From Branchiostoma floridae (lineage: Eukaryota > Chordata > Leptocardii > Amphioxiformes > Branchiostomatidae): a stretch of 64,000 bases of DNA. The notes under the pieces were generated by a model that saw nothing but the letters and a program-made list of their open reading frames with translations, searched no databases and was not told the DNA's origin. This document shows, piece by piece, positions 15,310-37,981 of this stretch. The stretch spans positions 499,613-563,612 of the forward strand of contig NC_049992.1 in NCBI RefSeq assembly GCF_000003815.2, in the 5' to 3' direction. The translations under genes were made by a program, and so were the position numbers. Each line of letters opens with the position of its first letter. Position 1 is the first letter of the stretch.

Positions 15310-15768
15310 CTACGACTCGGCGGAGGGTGACGACACGCTGTCCTCTACCTTTTCGTTCTTAAGCTCGACATTGACAGATTCGCTCTCTGCGTTGGACTGG
15401 TTTTCGACTACGCTATCTGACTCGCTCTGTCCTTGCGGCAACTGCGCGGCCTCTTTACTACCACCATTCCCCTCGAGTTCGTGCCGAAGTTGTTGGTTCT
15501 CCGCGTCCAACGCCGCCATTCTCTCCTTCAATTCTTCGATTTGCGCTCGGAGCTTCGTCTTCGACTTGTTGACGTCTCCGAACTTCTCGAGCCGCTTGCT
15601 CCGGACTAATTCCAGCTCCCGCTTCAACCGTTGTTTCGACTCGTTGGTCTCGCGTAGCTTCCTCTCGTGCTCGACCCGTAACCGCTCGATCTCCTTACGA
15701 AGGTTTCTCTTCGCCTCCGCTGCTTCACGAAGCTTCTCTTTCTTAGCAACTCGGAGGAAGTCAAGCTC
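15310..15768 (-). CDS. SKI: Ski exon f, coiled coil and C-terminal tail
   Basis: 459 nt including the TAG stop. The acceptor is CTTCTCCAG. It encodes 152 residues: [20 protein letters not shown], then [20 protein letters not shown] and further heptad-like Glu/Lys/Leu coiled coil to about residue 110 ([15 protein letters not shown]), then a hydrophilic Ser/Glu/Asn-rich tail ending SSPSAES. The coiled-coil core is nearly collinear with vertebrate SKI; the tail is not recognisably conserved. A minus-strand reading that starts at 15798 includes intronic sequence, because the AG at 15770-15769 and continuity from SLQQ fix the exon start. Confidence 0.96.
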   Translation of the reverse strand, partial: ELDFLRVAKKEKLREAAEAKRNLRKEIERLRVEHERKLRETNESKQRLKRELELVRSKRLEKFGDVNKSKTKLRAQIEELKERMAALDAENQQLRHELEGNGGSKEAAQLPQGQSESDSVVENQSNAESESVNVELKNEKVEDSVSSPSAES

Positions 15769-18700
15769 CTGGAGAAGAGGATTCCAAGAAAAAAACAAGT
15801 TAAAGCTTTTTTTTCTCTCTTTTTTTTCAGTACTTGAGAACTGAAAATCAAATGGGTGTGGCCTAACAAAACACAGAAGTATAAAACTCTATCCTAATAA
15901 CTGCTACCAAAGTTGAACATCAAAATTCTAGAAATGTTTTATGAGCTTCTCTCCAGATATAGTTTAGGTCGATATTTCTATCTTAAAAAGACTGAAGAAA
16001 TAACGATGATTTTGACAAATGAGTAAAAAAATGACTGACAAGTACAGTTAACACGTTCTCTTTGTTTCGAGTAAATCTTAGCCAACTTGTGAAGGACTTC
16101 CTTTAAACCATCAGTCTTGAAGAAGACTTAGGCCCACCTGTTGCAGACTCTTCTTGGCCTGGAGAGCGCTGCTAAGACGCTCCTCCTGTCGCATGCGGAT
16201 CTTGGCCAGCTCGTGGAGGAGTTTCTCCTTCGCCTCCTTACTCTCGCAGCCTCCGTCGAGCGCGCTCCGCACCAGCTCAAGCTCCTGCTCCACGGAGCTG
16301 CAGGGATAAACAAGTCCATTAGCCCGATTGTCCCGGACAAGTAAAAGTGCTGTTCGGGCAAGCAGAAGTGCTTCCCCACGTCAGGCAAGTAAGAATTTCC
16401 AGATGTGACCCGCTCAAATTACCACTGAGTGTGACAGCACATGGGGCTGAATGCCTGCCTATATTGACCATGTCATTTTTAAGCCAGTAGAGACATAGAC
16501 TTTGTTGTTGTTGTCCTCGTTTAACGTCTATTATTTCGCTAGACATGGTCTCTTAACAAAAGTGAAAATTTATGAAAGTGAAAACACATAGAAAAATGTA
16601 ATTTAAATGTCGGGCAAGTGAAAATTTGGTTCGGGCAAGTAAATTTTTTATGTACTTGCCCGATAGGACAAGAGAATTTTTGAAAACTTGTCTTACCCAG
16701 AGCTGTCCAGTTCGCTCCCTGACTCCTTCCCCGAAATCGTGCCGACGGGAATCGTGGCCGCGGGAGGATTCGCCGCGGCGCTGAGCGCTGACATGTCGAC
16801 CTCGGCCGCCATGTTCTGATCTGGCTGTCTCGTCTCGGTCGTCTCGGGCTGAGATGCTGGGGGGAAAGATTAAAGATATTTGATGTAAGATTTCAATTTC
16901 AGCGTTAAGTTTAACGGACAAGTTTTGCTTCGGCCGTTTTCTCTCGCTTGTTTCTGGCTGGGATAGTGTGAGGAAATATTAAATTCTGTCTATCTCCTAA
17001 ATAATGTGTGGAAGACATTCATTTCGTGTGAGATTGCGTCTCGATTTAATCGGACAATACTGCGAAGAAAGATGAATTCTGTCAGTGAATCTTCTAGAAA
17101 ATGTATTAAAGACATTCCATGTAAGATTTTGTATAGACTTTATCAGATTTTCTGCTCCAGTTGTCTGGTCTCGCTTGTCCCTGGCTGGGATGCTGTGAGC
17201 AGAGATTAAATTCTGTTAGTGTCGAGATAATGTATCAGAGACATACGGTGTGAGATTTCAGGTCATGTTCAAGGTCTCATTACACAATTAGATCGCCCCA
17301 TTGAATTCAATGCTTTAACACACAACTTCTATGTCCGCAAATCCAATTAAAACACAGTCTATTTGGAGATGTTTTGCTTTCTATTGTAAGCACACACGTT
17401 TGTTAGACAATCAAAAAATTTTCACCCAAATCTAGCCGACGCAACGATTTCTATCACATTTCAAAATGCACCTCGCCACTATCCGCTAGAGGTCGTCTTC
17501 AATACCCGGAGCCTGACCGGAGCACTCAGTACAAATAAATGTAAACGTCCGAGGATCGATCGGGTCACGAAACTTTCGTGCATGATCATGCCAGTAATAC
17601 ACAAGCTTTCATCGAAATTCCTTTTCATATCAGTTATGGTTTATTAATGGGAATTTATGGTCCACCTAAAACCACGCTTTGAGGGCCAGATAATTTTTTC
17701 GCCCGGATTCCTTTAGACACTACACTCGGAGTAATACAGGAATGAGACCTTCAATGTCAGTATCAACTTTAACAGACCTGTTTTGCTCTGGCTGGGATCG
17801 ATGTGGAGAGATCCATAACTGTTTTTTGATCTTGTAGATATTTTGCCAAAAATAACTTTAAAAAGATAATCCATACCTACCAACCCTAATTTTTTTCAGG
17901 ACAGGAAACAAAACTTACTTTTTCAGCGGCCTTAAGGTATGCATCTTTTATGTGCCATGATAAAACAAGGGGACCTCAGCTTGCACACGTGACAACCCTC
18001 CCAATGATATAAATGTCTCCAATTGGGATACACCAGCTTAAAAGCCTCAGACCTCAGAATCGGTCCTCTAATTTGCGCCCCGTCAGGACTCGCCCAAACA
18101 ATGACAGATCGCCTTGTCTCTGGTATCACAAAGGACCAAGGTTGAAACCATCAGTCACATTCCTACACTATCAGGGTGGAGACACAACAGGAGCCAATAC
18201 TTCTGATGGTTTTCCTTTTTGTCATCAGATACAGGACACAAGTACTGTTCACAACGGGCCACACCAGTTGAATTATGTGGTTCTGGACATTTTGGGGTAC
18301 AAATTCCTACACCATCAGGGATGATAAGGGAACAGGGGCCAATATTTCTGATGTTTTCTTTTTTGTTGTTATCTGATACATTCACCACTGGCCACATCAA
18401 TTTAATTTCTTGGTTCTCGACTAAAAGTACAAAAGTTAAAAAGTACAAATTCCTACACTATTCACTCCCATTTCTGGCTGTCATTCTCGAAAACAGAACT
18501 AATGGAGCTTAGATTACAATCATCAACCGATCCACACTGAAGTGACGCTACACGAATCTAACTTGTTGGTTCTACATGTATGTATGTAAAAGAAATATCT
18601 GCACCGGAAGGACAATTTGACAGGGGGAAAGTCCGCCCTCCCCATTTGCTCTATTTTTGCTCTCAAATATCAGAAAACCACAGAAAGAAATTAGGCCACA

Positions 18701-21700
18701 CCAATTTAATCTCTTGGTTCACGGATTCGCTCGCTCCTATTTTTTGGAAATAAAAATAAAACTTACCAATCAGCAAATTTTCACCATTAATGAAACCATT
18801 CACCAATTTCTGGTGTAGCAAATTGGCCTTTATATTACAAGCTCCTTAAAGTGTGGGTACAGGTGCTTTTACTGTACAGTAATAGTGTTTTTGTACTTTT
18901 TTCAAGCTGAAAACTTTTTATTCTTTATGTTTTGGATTAGCCCTTACCTTTACCCCAACCATATTACAATTTTTATATTTATTTCGCCCTCTTGCTCCAT
19001 ATTTTTTATGAAAAAATCCGTGAACCAAGAAATCAAATTGGTGTGGCCTAAGTGCCCTTCCTTCAGCTCAACTACAGGAAGTAGCCAGTATATTTCACGA
19101 CGTTTCGTCCTCAGCACACTCTTGGCAAACTCGGAGAGTCCATTAGCAAGTATCTAATATTTCCATCTCCAGGAGAAATCGACAGTGCCTGTGGATATTA
19201 CTGACATTTCGTGACAGTCCTCCTAGACTCAGTACAGCCAGGCATGTGACTCCTCCTGTGGGGTTTTACCCACTCCCACGTTCCTGAGATATTGACTCCT
19301 GGTCCCTGCCTGAAAGCGATGAAACGTCAAGATTGTGGGAGTAAATCTCACTGCACCTCGTTAATAACGTCTGCTGTGCGAAAATCAATCTCAGCAGTAG
19401 ATAGAGTCGAAAAGCCATCAAAGAATCCTTTCAGAGATGCATAGCACCTCGATTTTTGTAACGTCTGCGGTGCAAAAATTCATTAACACAGAGTTGAAAC
19501 CATCTAAGAATCTTTTCAGACACGTCAGCAGCACAGAAATTTTATCATTGTATTGCTATAAATCAGTGGAAAGCAGACTCGCTGCTGTAGAAATTAACTC
19601 TTTCTTTGAAGATGAAATCATGACGAATATCTATAATTCGATTTTCTTATTTGAAATGTCAAAATTCGGAAGCAGAAATCTGCCAGTTTTCTGAGGCCCT
19701 GGGGCTTTCTAATTCTACATATCATCTGCTCGATCATGGGGTGAGAAGAAAGTAATTTGCTTGCAGCTGAGAAGGGTTATACACTACAACGATCCTTAGG
19801 GTATACAGTATACAGGCAGTGACAGCTTTCTAGTTAGTCTTGTGGCATCACTGCAGATCTCCGGCAATACTAATTCCATTCTTCGGTTCTCGTACACATT
19901 CTAGAGAAAACTGAGCAAGAGGTTGGGATAAAACCAAAAGACAGCAAGTGGCAGGCCAGAGCTGGAGGGGCTGGTCAACATATACATGTATGTGTAGGAA
20001 GTAGGAATAAACACAGCAGCTGTTCGTAAGGCTAGACCATCTTATGGTTGAACATCATGTACTGTAAATGCAGAAACTTTCGTGGTGGTTTAATGTTCGC
20101 ATTTTTTCGCGGTGGCTGCTTCACCGCAAACTTAAAACCACTGCGAACATTTTTCCATTGCAGTAAGAGACTATAGGTAGTGCATGTTGCTACCGCGAAC
20201 TTGAAACCACTGCGAAAAGTCCTTTTTCCCGCTACCACAAAATTAAATTCCTGCGAACTTAAATGCATTTACAGTATTTGCTAGCAAAGGTTTCCTTTCT
20301 TGTAGTTTTCCCCTTGACTGAATTTCTCCCTCAAAAGTTCCAAGCACCGTGGAATCGACTTGGTACAGCCTAAGAGAAAGATTTGTGAGAGCTTCCAGCT
20401 GGAATAAGTCTCTTCTCATTAAAGCCCTCCTTGGGCAGATCACATGACTGCTTCTCATCAATCTTCCTTCCTTAAGACATTACAAGGTGTGAAGGCAATA
20501 CGTCTTCAGGTACCTTAAAAACTCATTTTGGGACTAGGTGCACTGGTGTTTCTACGATAAAAATCTCAATGCACAGAAAAAAATCTAATTTCACAATTTA
20601 CTTTTAGTTGACACTTGAACCTCAAGAATATACTGTATACTAGTGTACAATAAAACTATTACGTACGTAACCCCACACTTCTAGGTGCAACAGCGAACGA
20701 AAAGTCAAAAGTTAGGCGTAAAGTTCCAATTTTTGTGTGCGCACATAAGTGCGAATTTTGTACCCAATATCTCCAGCCATGCAGACTACAAAATTAGTTT
20801 TCTGGGAATCTAATTCCTGGGTGAGAGCGACGTAGGCGTTCCGAGCGCAAGATGGATAAACGTAGCCGGCTGCGTTGGCATTGATATACGACTACCAGCA
20901 GTTCTGTTACCTCTGCACACCTGAGATATACAGGTACCTCGTCCATCACTGCCTCACCTGCGACAGGTGATTAATGAACCAGGGCACGCCTGTGCAGGTA
21001 TGGACTTTCTGCCGATCTGTGACTTGTCAGGAGACAAGTATCTGTATTATTGGCTGTCTGCAAGGGGTGGATTTTCTTTGTCATTTTTCAAAACTCGTTT
21101 TGTAACACCTCCGGTCTCATTTTCTTGATTCTATTGACATTTTATTTTCAGAACAAAAAGAAATCAAGACGTTTAAAGAATTCTAGATAGTTTAAGGTCA
21201 CTTGCCTCACTCCACCCAGGTGTAAAAATCGGAACCTGACTTTGGTTAGGGAGTTAAGGGAGAGGAAAGAGAGGGTTTGGCTCCACCTTCCAATACCGTG
21301 CCTTTGACAAAGTGGGTAACAACCCACTGCCCTTACATAAGGCTATTCATTTATTGGTTTGGGTGTTCATCACACACAGCCAGAGCTGCCCAACTAGCTT
21401 GTGGCTATTAGAAAGGGCTAGCCATGATGACAGAGACAATGACAATACAGACTTTGACATGGACAGCACAATAAAACAATTCTTAGTACATGAAAAAAAA
21501 CTAATAGTAATGAGACTATCTTTTTAGAGATGCCTCACCTGCTTGCTCTGTCTAAATTCTTAAGGAGACTTAAGAAGTACATCTAAGATGCCTCACCTGT
21601 CTGCTCCGTCTCCTCTGAGCATCCTCCCTCCGTCTCCATCACTTCTCTCTTTATCATCTGCTGATGCTTCTCCTCACCTGTGGAGGTCGCGACCTCTGAC

Positions 21701-24700
21701 CCTTCCTCGACCTTCGCGACCTCTGACCCTTCCTCGACCTTCACGGCCGTCTGCGCGCTGCCAGACAGCTGGCTGCTCGTCGGGGCCAGGGCAACGTTGG
21801 GCGGAACATAGTTGTCGTATCTGCAACACAGAAAAATTCCTGTTTAATATTCAAATCTAACATTAACTACACCCAGGGCTCGAAATTCATTTTTGGGATT
21901 AGGTGCACTGCTGAAAATTGGGTGCACCAAAAAATGTTTGGGTGCACCACATAAAATAAAATAAAATATCACAACAGTTTTGGGGCATTGAAAAGATCGA
22001 TGAACACAAATTCCAACTTCAAATTCTTAAACAAGTACTATGACAGACATTCTATTATGTTTTTATGTTGATGTCAAGAATATGGTGTTTAATAGTATAT
22101 TGACATCTTTACATACATAGGCCTAAGAAAATATTTGGGTGCACCCTGTGCACCCACAGAAAAAAATTGGGTGCACAGCTCCAATTTTGGGTGCACCTGG
22201 GTGCACATGCACCCAGTATTTCGAGCCCTGTACACGTGTAGTCCAGAACATACATTGTAGTTCTTGTATCTGAAACAATGCAAAACTGACTTTCTTATTG
22301 CTGGCCCAATATTTTAGAAAGCAATTCCCCACATTTATCAACAACAAAAAAAAAGCCCCAAATATTGATGAACTGAAAGGAGAAGAAAAACAGAAAATTG
22401 TGGTGTGATGGTTTTCATGTCACTCCTTCAACTTGTGTATTCACATGTTGTGTATCTTTTTAAATTTCAATTATTCCATACATGCAAATAAACAACTCAA
22501 TCTAATAAAAATATTAATCATTATGCACCAATTTCTCCTCAAAATCAGTTTTCATGCCAATCCTCCAGTTCGTTCCACATTAATTTTTGTCAAATCTGAC
22601 AACCGAGTGATGTTCGAATCAGGGCCAGCCTCGTTTTGGTGCAATGACCTAGATGACCACGTAAAATCCAGAATGGCCACCGTAACTGGATCGGGGTCTA
22701 CTGGTACCTAATATTGGGTCAGTAAGGAGAAATTCATTACCAAAATATGCGCAGTTTTCTCCTCACACCTGTTTTTATCCCCATCTTCCAGTTCCATATT
22801 GATTTTTGTCAAATCCAAAAACCGACCAATCGACTAGGCCGCGCCCTGATCCCAACATCACTCTTCTGACAGAATGGGGCTTCCCGGCAGCCGTTGCCAT
22901 GGGAACGGGAACATTAGGCCCGCCCGAATAACGAGGCTGTCTGCTGAATGTCTGGTGATGGTCGTAAATTGATCCCCGCGGGGAGTAACCGGGCGGGGTG
23001 TAACCGGGCGCTGATGCACGGAAGGTTCACGCAGAGTTCGGCCGTTACTCACGAACCGCGCCGCAGCCATCGTTCATACCGCCCGCGTCCGAAATTCGTA
23101 ACGCTGAAAATTTCTGGAGCGTGACGTTATTACTGGAAATTCACTTACTACTTCAAGATGGGTTTTATTTCGCAGTAGGAGGGAAAATTAAACAAGGTTT
23201 TTGATTCATGTTTGAAACTATTCTACAGCCACACATGGGACACATATTCATGGTTTCCACATTGCAATGGAATGCTCTAGATACGCTGTCTTGTATAATA
23301 AATTTTTCCCATTATTCACATTTCTTTGCCTAAATATAACAGATTTTAAAAGACAGGTTTGGATATACATGTAGAAGTGACAACTCTTCCGATGCAAAAA
23401 TGATACATAAAAGATCACCTTGTTATTAACAAAGACACCGAAAGCAATGATTTGCCTCTTTTGATGTTTGCCTTTACTATTTAGTTTAGGCATAGAATTT
23501 AAGAATGTAAGATTTACTTTTGGATTCCTATTTTGTAGTTTTGCATCAAAAGAGGTCGATGTACTTTTGTTACATTTGCCCACACCCTAAATATGCCCAC
23601 ACACCCGTGATTGAAATTCGTAATGCAGCAATTTCGGAAACATGACGCACTATGCACATTCATAAGGCTTAGGCCTAGAAAAAAATGGTGTGTTTCGTGT
23701 TTCAGTCCTGAAAAAAATAGGGTCAGTAGGTAGGGATTATCTTTTTTTTTATTCTTGTAATTTTTTCGGGGCTGGCCAAAACAAAGGGATACATATTACA
23801 ATACAGTTGAACAAAGTAAACTGAAAGGCATGAGGTCTTTCAATGTCAAACTTTAATTTTGTGCATAATAGAAACATTTATCCTTCATTAGATAGGACAG
23901 GCAGTGTTTTTACTTCAAAAGGAAGCAGGCTGAATAAAAATTCTAACTAGAAGCTTTGTGACCCCACTGCACTAACCCAAAAAAAGGCTAGGGTCGGCAG
24001 GTTTTTCTAGGGTCGGTCGGGAAACAGGAAACACAACATTTTTTTCCCTAGGCCTTAGAACAATTGCAGTCACGAGGGGTTCCAAACGAGCGACGGCCGG
24101 CTCGGAAAACTGGGACGAGATAACGGCTTGTAGACGGAGCCTCTGATTGGTTGAGATGGATGCTATGGCGGAAATTTGCAGGCCAGGAATTCTAATCAAT
24201 ATCGAGGGGATGGAGGTCATTGCACGGTCATATTGTTGCCTGGAAAGAAGTGAAAATGGGGACGTCGAATACGCTGCTAGCGGTAAAATCTGGCACAAGC
24301 AATGCTGCTGAATGTTCCATCTTCCACTTTTGTATTCTGGAATATATAACGCTAGTTCACCTTTATCCGTTGGGTAACCTACATCCGTTGCTTTTAAAAA
24401 CGTGGTATTTGGGGATATCGACAGACGTTATTCTAAATTGCGATATTTTCAGTACATTGCAGCTTAAAACTACCACCCGTCGACTTGATGTGCCTAAATG
24501 CACTGTTTTGAAAAACAACGGATATATCTTACCCCGCGGATAAAGGTGAACTAGTGTTAACCTGCCCAAATAAGCAGCACCTGAGCATAAGAAAAACCTG
24601 TTCAGCTCCAATTCTACTCACACTAATTTTTTTCTTTGAGGACACAATCTTTTCTCAACTTCTGGTCTCATTCCGGACTTTTGCTGTCTCATTTAAAACA

Positions 24701-27700: not shown

Positions 27701-28032
27701 GAGACTTTAAGACATTATAGAAGACTCTTTAGATGGTTTAAAAGAATCTTTAAGATATCATACCAGAATCTTAAGATGTTTCATAAGAATCTTTAAGACA
27801 TCATGCACAAGTCTTTAAGACGTTACCTCATGGCGACTCGTCCGTAGAGGTCCTTCGCCTCTGCCATGGATGACGGAGACCAGGGTCTGAAGGCAGACAG
27901 CCGTTGGATGGGGGTCAGGTGACCATGGAGGGCGGTCCATGACGATGTGATCATGGCGTCGTGTCCCATCGCGAACTTCATCGCCTCGTCACTGCGCGCC
28001 CGCTTGCTCGCAACCTCGTCTTGGGAACCCGA
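15310..28032 (-). CDS. SKI: Ski/SnoN transcriptional corepressor, C-terminal 429 residues in six exons (5' partial)
   Basis: Ski and SnoN are nuclear corepressors that bind SMADs and NCoR and restrain TGF-beta/BMP signalling; this role is known for the family and not visible here. Exons, in transcript order, are 28032-27827, 25412-25332, 21820-21597, 16856-16697, 16297-16138 and 15768-15310. Every intron starts GT and ends AG, and the codons split across junctions (AGG, AGA, GCA, GGC) keep one open frame to a TAG at 15310-15312. Family landmarks are LSAFRPWSP in the first exon, NVALAP in the third, and [22 protein letters not shown] and [11 protein letters not shown] in the C-terminal coiled coil. 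These match the vertebrate SKI/SKIL order. The DHD and SAND domains must lie upstream, beyond 64000 or in exons I failed to see. One lancelet gene would represent both vertebrate paralogs. The fourth intron appears to be a transposon. Confidence 0.95.
16138..16297 (-). CDS. SKI: Ski exon e, start of C-terminal coiled coil
   Basis: 160 nt, acceptor TATCCCTGCAG, donor CAG/GTGGGC. It reads [16 protein letters not shown], then [20 protein letters not shown], then [15 protein letters not shown], closely matching the SKI coiled-coil segment around KEAKEKFLHE and SAALQAKRSL. This region mediates Ski/SnoN homo- and heterodimerisation in vertebrates (established for the family). The phase 0 exit after SLQQ joins ELDFLR in the last exon. 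The acceptor AG is in the duplicated target site of the transposon-derived intron. Confidence 0.95.
16301..16700 (-). mobile_element. MITE that forms the fourth visible Ski intron (introner-like)
   Basis: 400-bp element flanked by a perfect 5-bp target-site duplication AGCTG (16296-16300 and 16701-16705). Termini on the minus strand are CTGGGTAAGACAAGTTTTC and ACTTGTTTATCCCTG. About 50-90 bp at each end match the element at 37368-37681, including ACTTGCCCGAAC repeats and CTTGTCCTATCGGGCAAG. The Ski intron is 16696-16298, so donor GTAAGA lies five bases inside one end. Acceptor CAG is the first three bases of the target duplication after the other end. A CTAAT branch-point-like motif and a T/C-rich stretch precede it. 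Net effect on the message is +6 nt (two residues), frame preserved. Confidence 0.9.
16697..16856 (-). CDS. SKI: Ski exon d
   Basis: 160 nt, acceptor TTTCCCCCCAG, donor TCTGG/GTAAGA. It reads (A)[18 protein letters not shown], then an Ala/Ser-rich low-complexity stretch ending [12 protein letters not shown], a disordered linker before the coiled coil. Phase 1 entry and phase 2 exit agree with both neighbours. The last four exon bases and the donor belong to the terminus of the transposon occupying the next intron. Diverged copies of this exon's acceptor and 5' end lie in the preceding intron at about 16925-16985 and 17150-17215. Confidence 0.92.
16857..17260 (-). repeat. Tandem partial duplications of Ski exon d acceptor region
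   Basis: Units of roughly 95-150 bp share AGATTTCAATTTCAGCG-like, TTTAACGGACAAG-like and GGCTGGGAT-like blocks. At 17192 a minus-strand acceptor CTCACAG is followed by an exon-like stretch translating (A)[15 protein letters not shown] then stop, parallel to exon d's (A)[16 protein letters not shown] second copy at about 16965 translates [14 protein letters not shown] but its acceptor AG is lost. A more distant relative lies near 17770-17815. Confidence 0.75.
17290..17760. repeat. Diverged block paralogous to 24660-25145
   Basis: Shares ordered landmarks with 24660-25145: GGAGATGTTTT, AAACGTACACGTCCGAG-like, ACACAA(G/C)CTTTCATC and GGAGTAATAC(A/C)GGAA. One copy sits in each of two adjacent Ski introns, same orientation. 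It is an old repeat or a local duplication; no coding frame is recognised. Confidence 0.6.
18148..18430. repeat. Two-copy ~135-bp tandem repeat
   Basis: Units at about 18148-18290 and 18291-18430 share ATTCCTACACYATCAGGG, GCCAATAYTTCTGATG and GGCCACACCAG/GGCCACATCAA ends. Intronic. The unit ends resemble the GGCCACACC-terminated element family. Confidence 0.6.
18692..19051. mobile_element. MITE with GGCCACACC termini
   Basis: Terminal inverted repeats of ~35 bp: TTAGGCCACACCAATTTAAT with CTTGGTTCACGGATT at the left, and the complement ending GGTGTGGCCTAA at the right. TA on both sides suggests a TA target duplication (Tc1/mariner type). Degraded ends of the same family occur at 15850-15870, 10450-10485 and 42240-42275. 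Confidence 0.7.
20062..20274 (+). mobile_element. 213-bp palindromic MITE, CTGTAAATGC family (copy 2)
   Basis: Ends CTGTAAATGCAG and TGCATTTACAG, flanked by TA on both sides. Internal CGCGG/CCGCG-rich inverted subrepeats. In the exon c/d intron of Ski. Same orientation as the copies at 9721, 38878 and 57768. Confidence 0.88.
21597..21820 (-). CDS. SKI: Ski exon c, acidic linker with duplicated KVEEGSEVA unit
   Basis: 224 nt, acceptor TGTGTTGCAG, donor ACAG/GTGAGG. It starts by completing Arg and reads [20 protein letters not shown], matching the NVALAP block of vertebrate SKI. A perfect 27-bp tandem duplication (21688-21714 and 21715-21741) gives two KVEEGSEVA units. Three psi-K-x-E motifs are visible (VKVE, AKVE, IKRE), the consensus for SUMO attachment; SnoN is a known SUMO target, but modification of these lysines is inference. 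The exon ends SEETEQT plus one base of a split Ala codon. A diverged copy of its donor lies 58 bp further into the intron. Confidence 0.92.
21874..22230 (+). mobile_element. MITE, CAGGGCTCGAAAT family
   Basis: CAGGGCTCGAAATTC at the left, ATTTCGAGCCCTG at the right; TACAC at 22231-22235 and at 21868-21872 with one extra C before the left end. Interior repeats TTGGGTGCACC. In the intron just upstream of Ski exon c. Confidence 0.8.
22858..23110. other. GC/CpG-rich patch in Ski intron b/c
   Basis: Dense CpG, including CCCGCGGGG and GCCGCAGCC. Minus strand has ATGGCTGCGGCGCGGTTC directly before a GTGAGT donor-like site (23070-23047). The phase would not join exon c in frame. It could be an internal promoter or a GC-rich repeat; no direct support. 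Confidence 0.25.
23669..24058. mobile_element. TIR element, TTAGGCCTAGGGAAAAAAATG family (copy 1)
   Basis: Inverted ends CTTAGGCCTAGAAAAAAATG and CATTTTTTTCCCTAGGCC. Interior contains TTCAGTCCTGAAAAA and CAATGTCAAACTTTAATTTT, shared with the copy at 26137. Confidence 0.75.
24347..24560. mobile_element. MITE, TTCACCTTTATCCG family (copy in Ski intron b/c)
   Basis: TAACGCTAGTTCACC at the left and GGTGAACTAGTGTTA at the right. TIR similarity extends ~80 bp inward. Another full copy at 54706 and a left-end fragment at 13181-13250. Confidence 0.8.
24660..25145. repeat. Diverged block paralogous to 17290-17760
   Basis: Second copy of the block, in the intron between exons b and c. Downstream to about 25310 the sequence becomes GC- and CpG-rich without a recognised gene. 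Confidence 0.6.
25332..25412 (-). CDS. SKI: Ski exon b
   Basis: 81 nt between acceptor TTTTTTCCAG and donor CAG/GTGAGT. The first base completes an Arg codon begun in exon a, and the last two bases (AG) start the Arg completed by exon c. It encodes [20 protein letters not shown] and then PYTGMG, a proline-rich linker between the two conserved middle blocks of Ski. Both phases fit only this reading. No domain is recognised; its identity rests on position, splice sites and continuity into the [13 protein letters not shown] segment. Confidence 0.88.
26137..26530. mobile_element. TIR element, TTAGGCCTAGGGAAAAAAATG family (copy 2)
   Basis: Same interior as copy 1. Flanked by a 14-bp direct repeat CTAACCTCCAAAGT (26123-26136 and 26531-26544). 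Degraded ends of the family at 17880-17920 and 52100-52160. Confidence 0.75.
27318..27390 (-). mobile_element. SINE fragment
   Basis: Minus strand: GGTTTGAGTCCCTGACAAT then TGCCCTTGGGAAAGGCAC, the same head/body junction as at 3620-3665. Intron a/b of Ski. Confidence 0.5.
27410..27826. repeat. AATCTTTAAGACAT minisatellite abutting Ski exon a donor
   Basis: Around fifteen degenerate ~20-25-bp units (AAGAATCTTTAAGACATYWT) running up to the donor of exon a. The last unit, CTTTAAGACGTTAC, includes the donor bases. Confidence 0.75.
27827..28032 (-). CDS. SKI: Ski exon a (first visible exon)
   Basis: 206 nt. It begins in phase 0 after an acceptor reading TTTCCGCAG and ends with two bases of a split Arg codon before donor GTAACG. 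It encodes 68 residues starting [16 protein letters not shown], then [16 protein letters not shown] and a tail ending GRVAM. The LSAFRPWSP block is the diagnostic vertebrate SKI segment just after the SAND region. KRAR could be a short basic nuclear signal (inference). The donor abuts a run of degenerate AATCTTTAAGACAT-like repeats (27410-27826), and the acceptor with the first ~30 exon bases has a diverged copy about 130 bp upstream (28133-28180). Confidence 0.93.
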
Positions 28033-28132
28033 CTGCGGAAACACGACAGGAAGAAAGTACATAAGAATCTTTCATGAACAATGTGTCCTACTGGCTGTTA
28101 GTGTAACGCACAAGAATTAAATATATATATAA

Positions 28133-36475: not shown

Positions 36476-37367
36476 GTCCTGACCACTCTAAAACCCGCGC
36501 CTGCTGGCCAGCCCCCAACACAAAGACACCTGTTGGACGGGGTCTGCCCTGACCCGCATACCAGCGCCCCAGCCAACCCAGCTCTGGTAAACAACACAGG
36601 TCTGGGGAGGGACGGCCGGTAAACGGAACAGCCCACAGGCCTGGAATAGATCGGGAGGGGGGCCTCCATGTGAAGCAGTCTTTCGTGCACTGTGCCCTCA
36701 GACTGTGTAACAATTCTGCATAGCACATAGTGTGTATGTTAAACGTTTCGACTATGACTGTTTAGTAAAATTATTGTACATATTGTACCTAATTCAGGGA
36801 GGCTTGTATAGCTCCCCCTGCCTATGTACTTTTGAGGAATGATAATAAATAAATCTACAATGTTTTAACATCCCTGCCTATGATGGAGGACTGGACACTC
36901 ACTGGACATCATGAATGCATCTTTGGTCATTTCTGCTTCATGAAGAAACATGTCAAGCTATACCTTTTTCCAAAGCAGCGTGATTTGTTGGTTTTAAGAC
37001 TTAAAAGCAATTAAGTTGAAGAGGAAAATTAACATGAAAACAGAGGGGAGGGAAAGTCTGTGCCTTGGTACACATGGTTTCAGATAACAAATAGTATCAG
37101 ATTATTGTTTTCCTCCAAGATCTCTGTTTCAGGCTTATTTTTAACCCCTAAATGTGGCCCTAAGTTGGGGTACAGACAGTTATCATAGGTTCCACCTTGT
37201 GTGGCCCCTCTCCATCTACAGTGGCCAACCATCATTTAGGCAGACAGACTTCACTGTAAAATATCAAACTGTGGCAGACAAGGGGCTTCATTGGGGTAGT
37301 CTGCTTCTATGTTGTAATAAAAGATATCACAGGTTTGTTGGCAGAATTCTCTGTGTTCAGGGTTGAA

Positions 37368-37681
37368 CAAGTTTTCTAAAATCCACTTGTCCTATCGGGC
37401 AAGCACAGAAAAAATGTACTTGCCCGAACCAATTTTTCACTTGCCCAAAATTCAAATGTCACTGTTACTAGTATATGCATTTTCACTTCCAGCAATGGAA
37501 TTCTCTGTAGACAATTGCTTGATGTCATGACTGTAAAAAGTAACAAGTATACCAAAATTGCACTAAAATCAATGGAAAAATCTTACTTGCCCGATCGGAC
37601 AAGTGGGGTAGGACATGCACTTGCCCGAACAGCACTTTCACTTGCCCTGGACAATAGGGCTAGTGGACTTGTTTATCCCTG
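37368..37681 (+). mobile_element. 314-bp MITE, relative of the Ski intron element, TSD GTGTT
   Basis: CAGGGTTGAACAAG at the left, CTTGTTTATCCCTG at the right. GTGTT at 37363-37367 and 37682-37686. Multiple ACTTGCCCGA motifs. It defines the true ends of the family that makes up the Ski intron at 16301-16700. Confidence 0.88.
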
Positions 37682-37981
37682 GTGTTTGTGTTTACCGGTA
37701 TTACTGAGCTCTCCTGTGTACTACTGAATGTATGTGATTCTGCACGTGTCTTTTACAAACTGCATATGAATAGATAAATGTGAAATTTCTTTCCCCGTAC
37801 TGGCAAACTATGAAACTCTCTCGACAACAACTGTTTCTCTCCTGTCTACAACTTATCAGCCTTCAAAACAAGTGTCCACAGCTATCTCCTTGTACAATGT
37901 ACTAATTCCAACTTCTTAGTTCATTGCCTTGAAGTGGTCTAATGACCTTGCTTTGAACAATCTCCTTTAAAAAATGCCAAT

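Follow-up and report, generated by a model that had tools for sequence, protein, structure and literature searches.

The predicted intron at 16298-16696 in the conserved signalling gene Ski of the lancelet Branchiostoma floridae was very probably made by the insertion of a DNA transposon. New introns whose origin can be read are rare in animals, and the Ski case offers the element, its target, the ancestral protein and a single change in the donor together. The mechanism is already known from introners; a clean case in a chordate is unusual. What appears to be new here is the presence in the element's subfamily of a latent donor (CAGG/GTTAGA) and a branch-point-like CTAAT motif, and of GTA in place of GTT in the Ski copy.

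In the proposed mechanism, a short non-autonomous cut-and-paste DNA transposon would have inserted, in the lineage leading to this lancelet, into a Ski exon that was still uninterrupted, with CAGCT being duplicated in the process. The spliceosome would remove the insert as a U2-type GT-AG intron, with the donor taken from 4 nt within the element, the branch point and T-rich tract from the opposite element end, and the acceptor AG from the target duplication. The weak GTTAGA would have become GTAAGA through replacement of T by A at donor position +3, a change that no other copy shows; better splicing is probably why it was favoured. For the protein, the price would be two residues (4 element nt plus 5 duplicated nt minus 3 spliced nt, or 6 nt), just ahead of the coiled coil. 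The features discussed below are given as positions in the window, i.e. the whole stretch of 64,000 nt that was analysed.

15310..15768, minus strand: Ski exon f, the last coding exon, from exon joining and orthologue comparison
16138..16297, minus strand: Ski exon e (160 nt), from exon joining and orthologue comparison
16296..16300, no strand: target-site duplication on the 3' side of the intron, AGCTG on the plus strand and CAGCT in the Ski sense
16298..16696, minus strand: predicted new GT-AG Ski intron d/e, 399 nt, from frame and orthologues
16301..16700, minus strand: non-autonomous DNA transposon (MITE), 400 bp, in the Ski sense CTGGGTAAGACAAG...TTTATCCCTG, from ends, flanks and genomic family
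16319, minus strand: branch-point-like A of CTAAT, the 22nd nt from the intron end (-22)
16694, minus strand: element position 7, equal to donor +3, A in the Ski copy
16697..16856, minus strand: Ski exon d (160 nt), whose final 4 nt (CTGG) are element-derived
16701..16705, no strand: target-site duplication on the 5' side of the intron, exonic, AGCTG, a perfect match
21597..21820, minus strand: Ski exon c, from exon joining and orthologue comparison
~27826..28035, minus strand: Ski exon b, borders approximate, placed by tblastn
37358..37681, plus strand: second copy in the window, of another subfamily, 324 bp, with GTGTT at 37353-37357 and 37682-37686

Intron borders and the Ski proteins of relatives

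The first-pass annotation had proposed that a 399-nt intron coincides with a 400-bp element flanked by AGCTG, with the donor inside one terminus and the acceptor CAG supplied by the duplicated target past the other, and the sequence bears this out at 16298-16696, 16301-16700 and 16296-16300/16701-16705. The intron equals the element minus 4 nt at one end plus 3 target nt at the other: the donor GG/GTAAGA sits four nt inside one element end, and the acceptor CAG is the first three Ski-sense nucleotides of the duplication at 16296..16300. The element has terminal inverted repeats (CAGGGATAAACAAG against CTGGGTAAGACAAG). Matching 5-bp flanks were found in 233 of 200000 random 400-bp intervals of the window, intervals containing N being counted as non-matching, and the AGCTG duplication is thus more than chance. 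As had also been claimed, removal of the element and one target copy restores the frame: translation of the empty site gives SELDSSVEQ, whereas the predicted spliced form, SELDSSGSVEQ, has two residues more. The unspliced reading meets an immediate in-frame stop (SSG*). At the level of sequence, the insertion, its ends, the duplication and the family are established, as is the in-frame gain of 6 nt if splicing proceeds as predicted. The predicted fold of the intron RNA was mildly stable relative to shuffles (z -2.6) and was left unused as evidence.

The two window copies are similar at both ends, with 89% identity over 91 nt starting at nt 10 and 80% over 105 columns that reach the last nt, and this similarity stops at the element borders, their 60-nt flanks matching at 15/60 and 9/60 positions. 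The sister copy has the GTGTT duplication that was described for it, except that its start lies at 37358 rather than 37368.

When exons c, d, e and f are joined, the frame is open down to the stop codon. A search of the 64,000-nt window for short motifs of the Ski/Sno domain found none, so the first Ski coding exon probably lies outside it. A genome search gave a single Ski locus in the assembly, and a second genome search agrees, although element copies crowd its list. Exon c contains an exact 27-bp tandem duplication at 21688-21741 (KVEEGSEVA twice), which is absent from the two other lancelet proteins introduced below. The acceptor region and start of exon d exist in three copies (16814-16880, 16923-16989 and 17150-17216), two of them upstream in the intron, with 66% and 78% identity to the middle copy (16923-16989). 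The farther repeat keeps a CACAG acceptor, would encode 16 residues before a stop, and resembles a decayed duplicate exon.

A protein search scored 7988 candidates, and the best 120 of its 430 matches were listed. Among the matches listed, the only lancelet entries were SKI of B. lanceolatum (P0001) and, from a B. floridae x belcheri hybrid, a ski oncogene-like protein (P0002), each one representative of clusters of 3 and 4 sequences; a second protein search returned no further lancelet Ski. At the junction, P0001 reads SELDGTVEQ and P0002 SELDSTVEQ, the rest of the junction aligns, and among the three lancelet proteins (P0001 and P0002 being protein models) the two extra residues are present only in the window. 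The comparison with other Branchiostoma Ski genes suggested in the first-pass annotation therefore came out in its favour at the protein level, both relatives lacking exactly the two residues that the element and duplication should add. Pairwise identities over the shared part are 268/317, 267/320 and 268/314, so that no two of the three are clearly closer to each other than to the third; with the window from B. floridae, P0002 should represent the belcheri allele. In three acorn worms the corresponding residues are DSTVEQ, ESSLEQ and ESSVEQ. In the rows printed, vertebrates mostly have SSGLEAEL or similar, which superficially resembles SSGSVEQEL and is one residue out of register, and pairs of vertebrate Ski isoforms differ elsewhere than at this junction. 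Vertebrate Ski is not known to have an intron at this place, and the proteins suggest that it is absent here from other deuterostomes.

The element family and its latent splice signals

The genome searched was the window's own (G000), comprising 513,431,437 bases in 431 contigs. A similarity search with the element gave 47 match rows, with 40 of 1865 first-look candidates scored. In all, 107 regions were fetched: 38 from the similarity list, 29 in which the right end is followed by NAG, and 40 matches to the left terminus. The NAG group represents 29 of 35 genomic copies with NAG directly beyond the right end (control 0), the remaining six being Ski and five already in hand; the left-terminus group consists of 40 further regions from 74 matches, at least one having been left out. 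Together with the two window copies this made 109 sequences, of which 26 were dropped and 83, at different places, have both ends (34/38, 27/29 and 20/40 by source, plus both window copies). Exact 5-bp target duplications flank 53 of these 83, a further 17 have duplications with a slip of 1-2 nt, and 13 have none. The family ends correspond to those of the Ski element, which confirms the borders independently of the window sister, and no family consensus with ends outside the intron borders appeared. With these ends in agreement, and with two lancelet proteins that lack the two residues, the originally proposed gain of an intron from a DNA transposon is supported. A scan of viral contigs, from which records near the window's genome were possibly left out, gave 0 matches to the element.

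At least two subfamilies can be distinguished: copies of about 400 bp have GTTAGA and CTAAT, whereas those of about 324 bp have GTTGAA or GTTGGA and, in most cases, CTAGT; CTAAT occurs in 47 and CTAGT in 34 of the 83 two-ended copies. The window sister (37358-37681; GTTGAA, CTAGT) belongs to a different subfamily from the Ski copy and is therefore a poor guide to which Ski bases are derived. From comparison with this sister alone, three bases of the donor and the A of the branch point had been regarded as Ski-specific; CTAAT and the bases at donor +4 and +5 proved to be those of the subfamily. In the family alignment, the only private Ski bases near the donor are A2T and T7A, the former a silent change in the mRNA (TCA to TCT, determined by hand).

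The consensus of the Ski subfamily starts CAGG/GTTAGA and ends CTAAT...TTTATCCCTG. The donor (latent and weak), the branch-point-like motif and the T-rich tract would thus all come with the element, and only the AG would be missing. Donor +3 is T in all 42 other copies of a 43-copy alignment. Among 74 genomic matches to GGGTNAGACAAGTTTT, this position is T in 72, C in 1 and A in 1, the last being Ski, and GGGTAAGACAAGTTTT occurs a single time in the genome; since controls with the patterns read backward gave 2 matches for the GGGTAAGACAAGTTTT search and 3 for the GGGTNAGACAAGTTTT search, a small number of the 74 could be fortuitous and not represent copies. By a rough matrix, the Ski element donor scores 7.3 bits. 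The c/d and e/f donors of Ski reach 10.9 and 8.1, the subfamily consensus 4.6 and the window sister -1.5. With the same rough matrix, 15 of the 786 GTs across the Ski stretch score at least as high, so the element donor appears good though not exceptional.

In the opposite orientation the terminus reads GGGATAAA and offers no GT. With a target of the form NAGNN, 4 + 5 - 3 = 6 nt are gained and the frame is kept, other placements of AG in the duplication leading to a frameshift; the element can therefore use an AG internal to the duplication without a frameshift solely at NAGNN targets. Such five-mers make up 147 of 1203 in the Ski coding pieces.

Age of the insertion and alternative explanations

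The Ski copy differs from the consensus by 2.75%, the median of 43 aligned copies being 3.42%. In this alignment it has six private substitutions in 400 nt (1.5%; positions 2, 7, 28, 92, 201 and 321), five substitutions common to other copies, and 9 nt deleted. The small number of private changes suggests that the insertion is recent. The nucleotide diversity of B. floridae is high and exceeds the 1.5% private divergence of the Ski copy, so the insert may still be polymorphic. The chance that six random changes would give a purine at +3 is about 1% (6 x 2/1200), a figure obtained by hand, post hoc and for one copy, and survival may simply have favoured an insert that already bore the +3 A. The Ski intron looks young enough for fixation and selection on splicing to be studied in living populations. 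We would advance only tentatively, as somewhat doubtful, the stronger proposal that a chordate intron has been caught at birth from an ordinary MITE family, not specialised in making introns, with ends that happen to be one base short of a good donor, and that empty, weak-donor and strong-donor alleles may segregate with +3 under selection.

The youth of the copy (2.75% from the consensus, six private substitutions in 400 nt), its divergence within the high diversity of the species, and the single Ski haplotype in the assembly are also what would be expected if the insert were a recent disruptive allele of the sequenced animal, unspliced or poorly spliced, and no established intron. We regard this as quite improbable: the predicted join is in frame, exons c to f are open to the stop with the insert spliced out, and the donor is fairly strong and altered relative to other copies. 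Transposable elements commonly insert into existing introns, and the element could have landed in an older intron, the remainder of which was then lost; however, the duplication is coding on both sides, no intronic base lies outside the element and the duplication, and the flanks, once joined, encode a sequence like that of the relatives' proteins, which makes this explanation extremely unlikely. Insertion into a continuous exon remains the preferred explanation, and it leaves room for a broader one, in which the family is a true introner that made many introns in this genome, with Ski among them. The Ski subfamily combines the latent donor and branch-point-like motif with an end ready for an acceptor, and it needs just a NAG at the target, which the 35 NAG copies possess. 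In addition, an open-frame test was applied to the 83 two-ended copies, allowing any AG within 30 nt and with no annotation behind it; judged by the shorter side, L064 ranked above Ski (73 versus 58 codons), and another 10 copies have at least 38. This crude test, in which Ski's own best frame was not its true one, gave at least 38 open codons on the shorter side in 12 of 83 copies. Fairly long open frames are also present in the NAG copies L060 (44 and 54 codons on the two sides), L068 (38 and 80) and L048 (101 and 26, with tandem repeats on its left side). Nevertheless, of the 34 NAG copies besides Ski, two have no clear left end, and inspection by eye of the 32 two-ended ones picked out no case with coding sequence on both sides. 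The EGF-like exon at L064, whose Pfam matches fall below the curated cut-off, ends at its own CAG/GT donor upstream of the element, and Pfam found nothing in the other five frames tested. A family of this kind is unlikely. The suggested genome search for copies that coincide with introns yielded the 83 two-ended copies, and by the crude open-frame test no second element-made intron was recognised among them.

Two individual copies lie close to apparent donors. L064 (G000:C13:3541710-3542930) is a short copy of 224 bp with an exact CAGTA duplication, located about 36 nt downstream of the apparent donor of the EGF-like exon. The copy nearest to the Ski one, L028 (G000:C2:24012088-24013080; 2.3% different), directly follows GTAAG. 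This is apparently its duplicated target, slipped by one base, and the copy looks as though it had inserted just within an existing donor.

Relation to known introners and transposon superfamilies

With borders that coincide with element ends, a target duplication and terminal inverted repeats, the predicted Ski intron shows several features of an introner-type intron. It is established that DNA transposons become introns, and elements that carry a donor and co-opt an acceptor, as well as elements that add codons, have been described in protists (PMC9860276). The introners of Chrysochromulina sp. are like Ski in taking the 5' splice site from the element and the 3' splice site from the insertion site (Gozashti et al. 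2022, PMC9860276). They have 4-bp duplications, no terminal inverted repeats and a multi-copy intron family, whereas the Ski element has a 5-bp duplication, terminal inverted repeats and one recognised intron, in a chordate. In Aureococcus sp., whole extra codons are likewise gained from element and duplicated nucleotides (4 + 8 = 12, as against 4 + 5 - 3 = 6 in Ski); unlike Ski, those introners carry both splice sites and make an 8-bp duplication (PMC9860276). Closer in taxonomy, one sentence in PMC5802833 reports an intron gain in amphioxus PRHOXNB with the MITE LanceletTn-2 detected. As in Ski, an intron was gained in a lancelet gene and a MITE detected; that sentence leaves unstated whether the MITE is the whole intron, and the reference given there is, to judge from its title, on another gene. 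In the open-licence literature, no paper on this Ski intron was found by title or abstract start, and none on Ski gene structure.

As to the superfamily of the element, the ends of the family are of CAGGG type (CAGGGTTAGACAAG...TTTATCCCTG), and ends of the form CAGGG...CCCTG are a habit of hAT elements. Transib-like elements also make 5-bp duplications, and Transib or CMC-type ends are CAC; the family has the 5-bp duplication and CA..TG, but its ends read CAGGG rather than CAC. Our guess is that the family belongs to hAT, in which groups with 5-bp target duplications like that of the Ski family exist (hAT5-type; PMC12730594).
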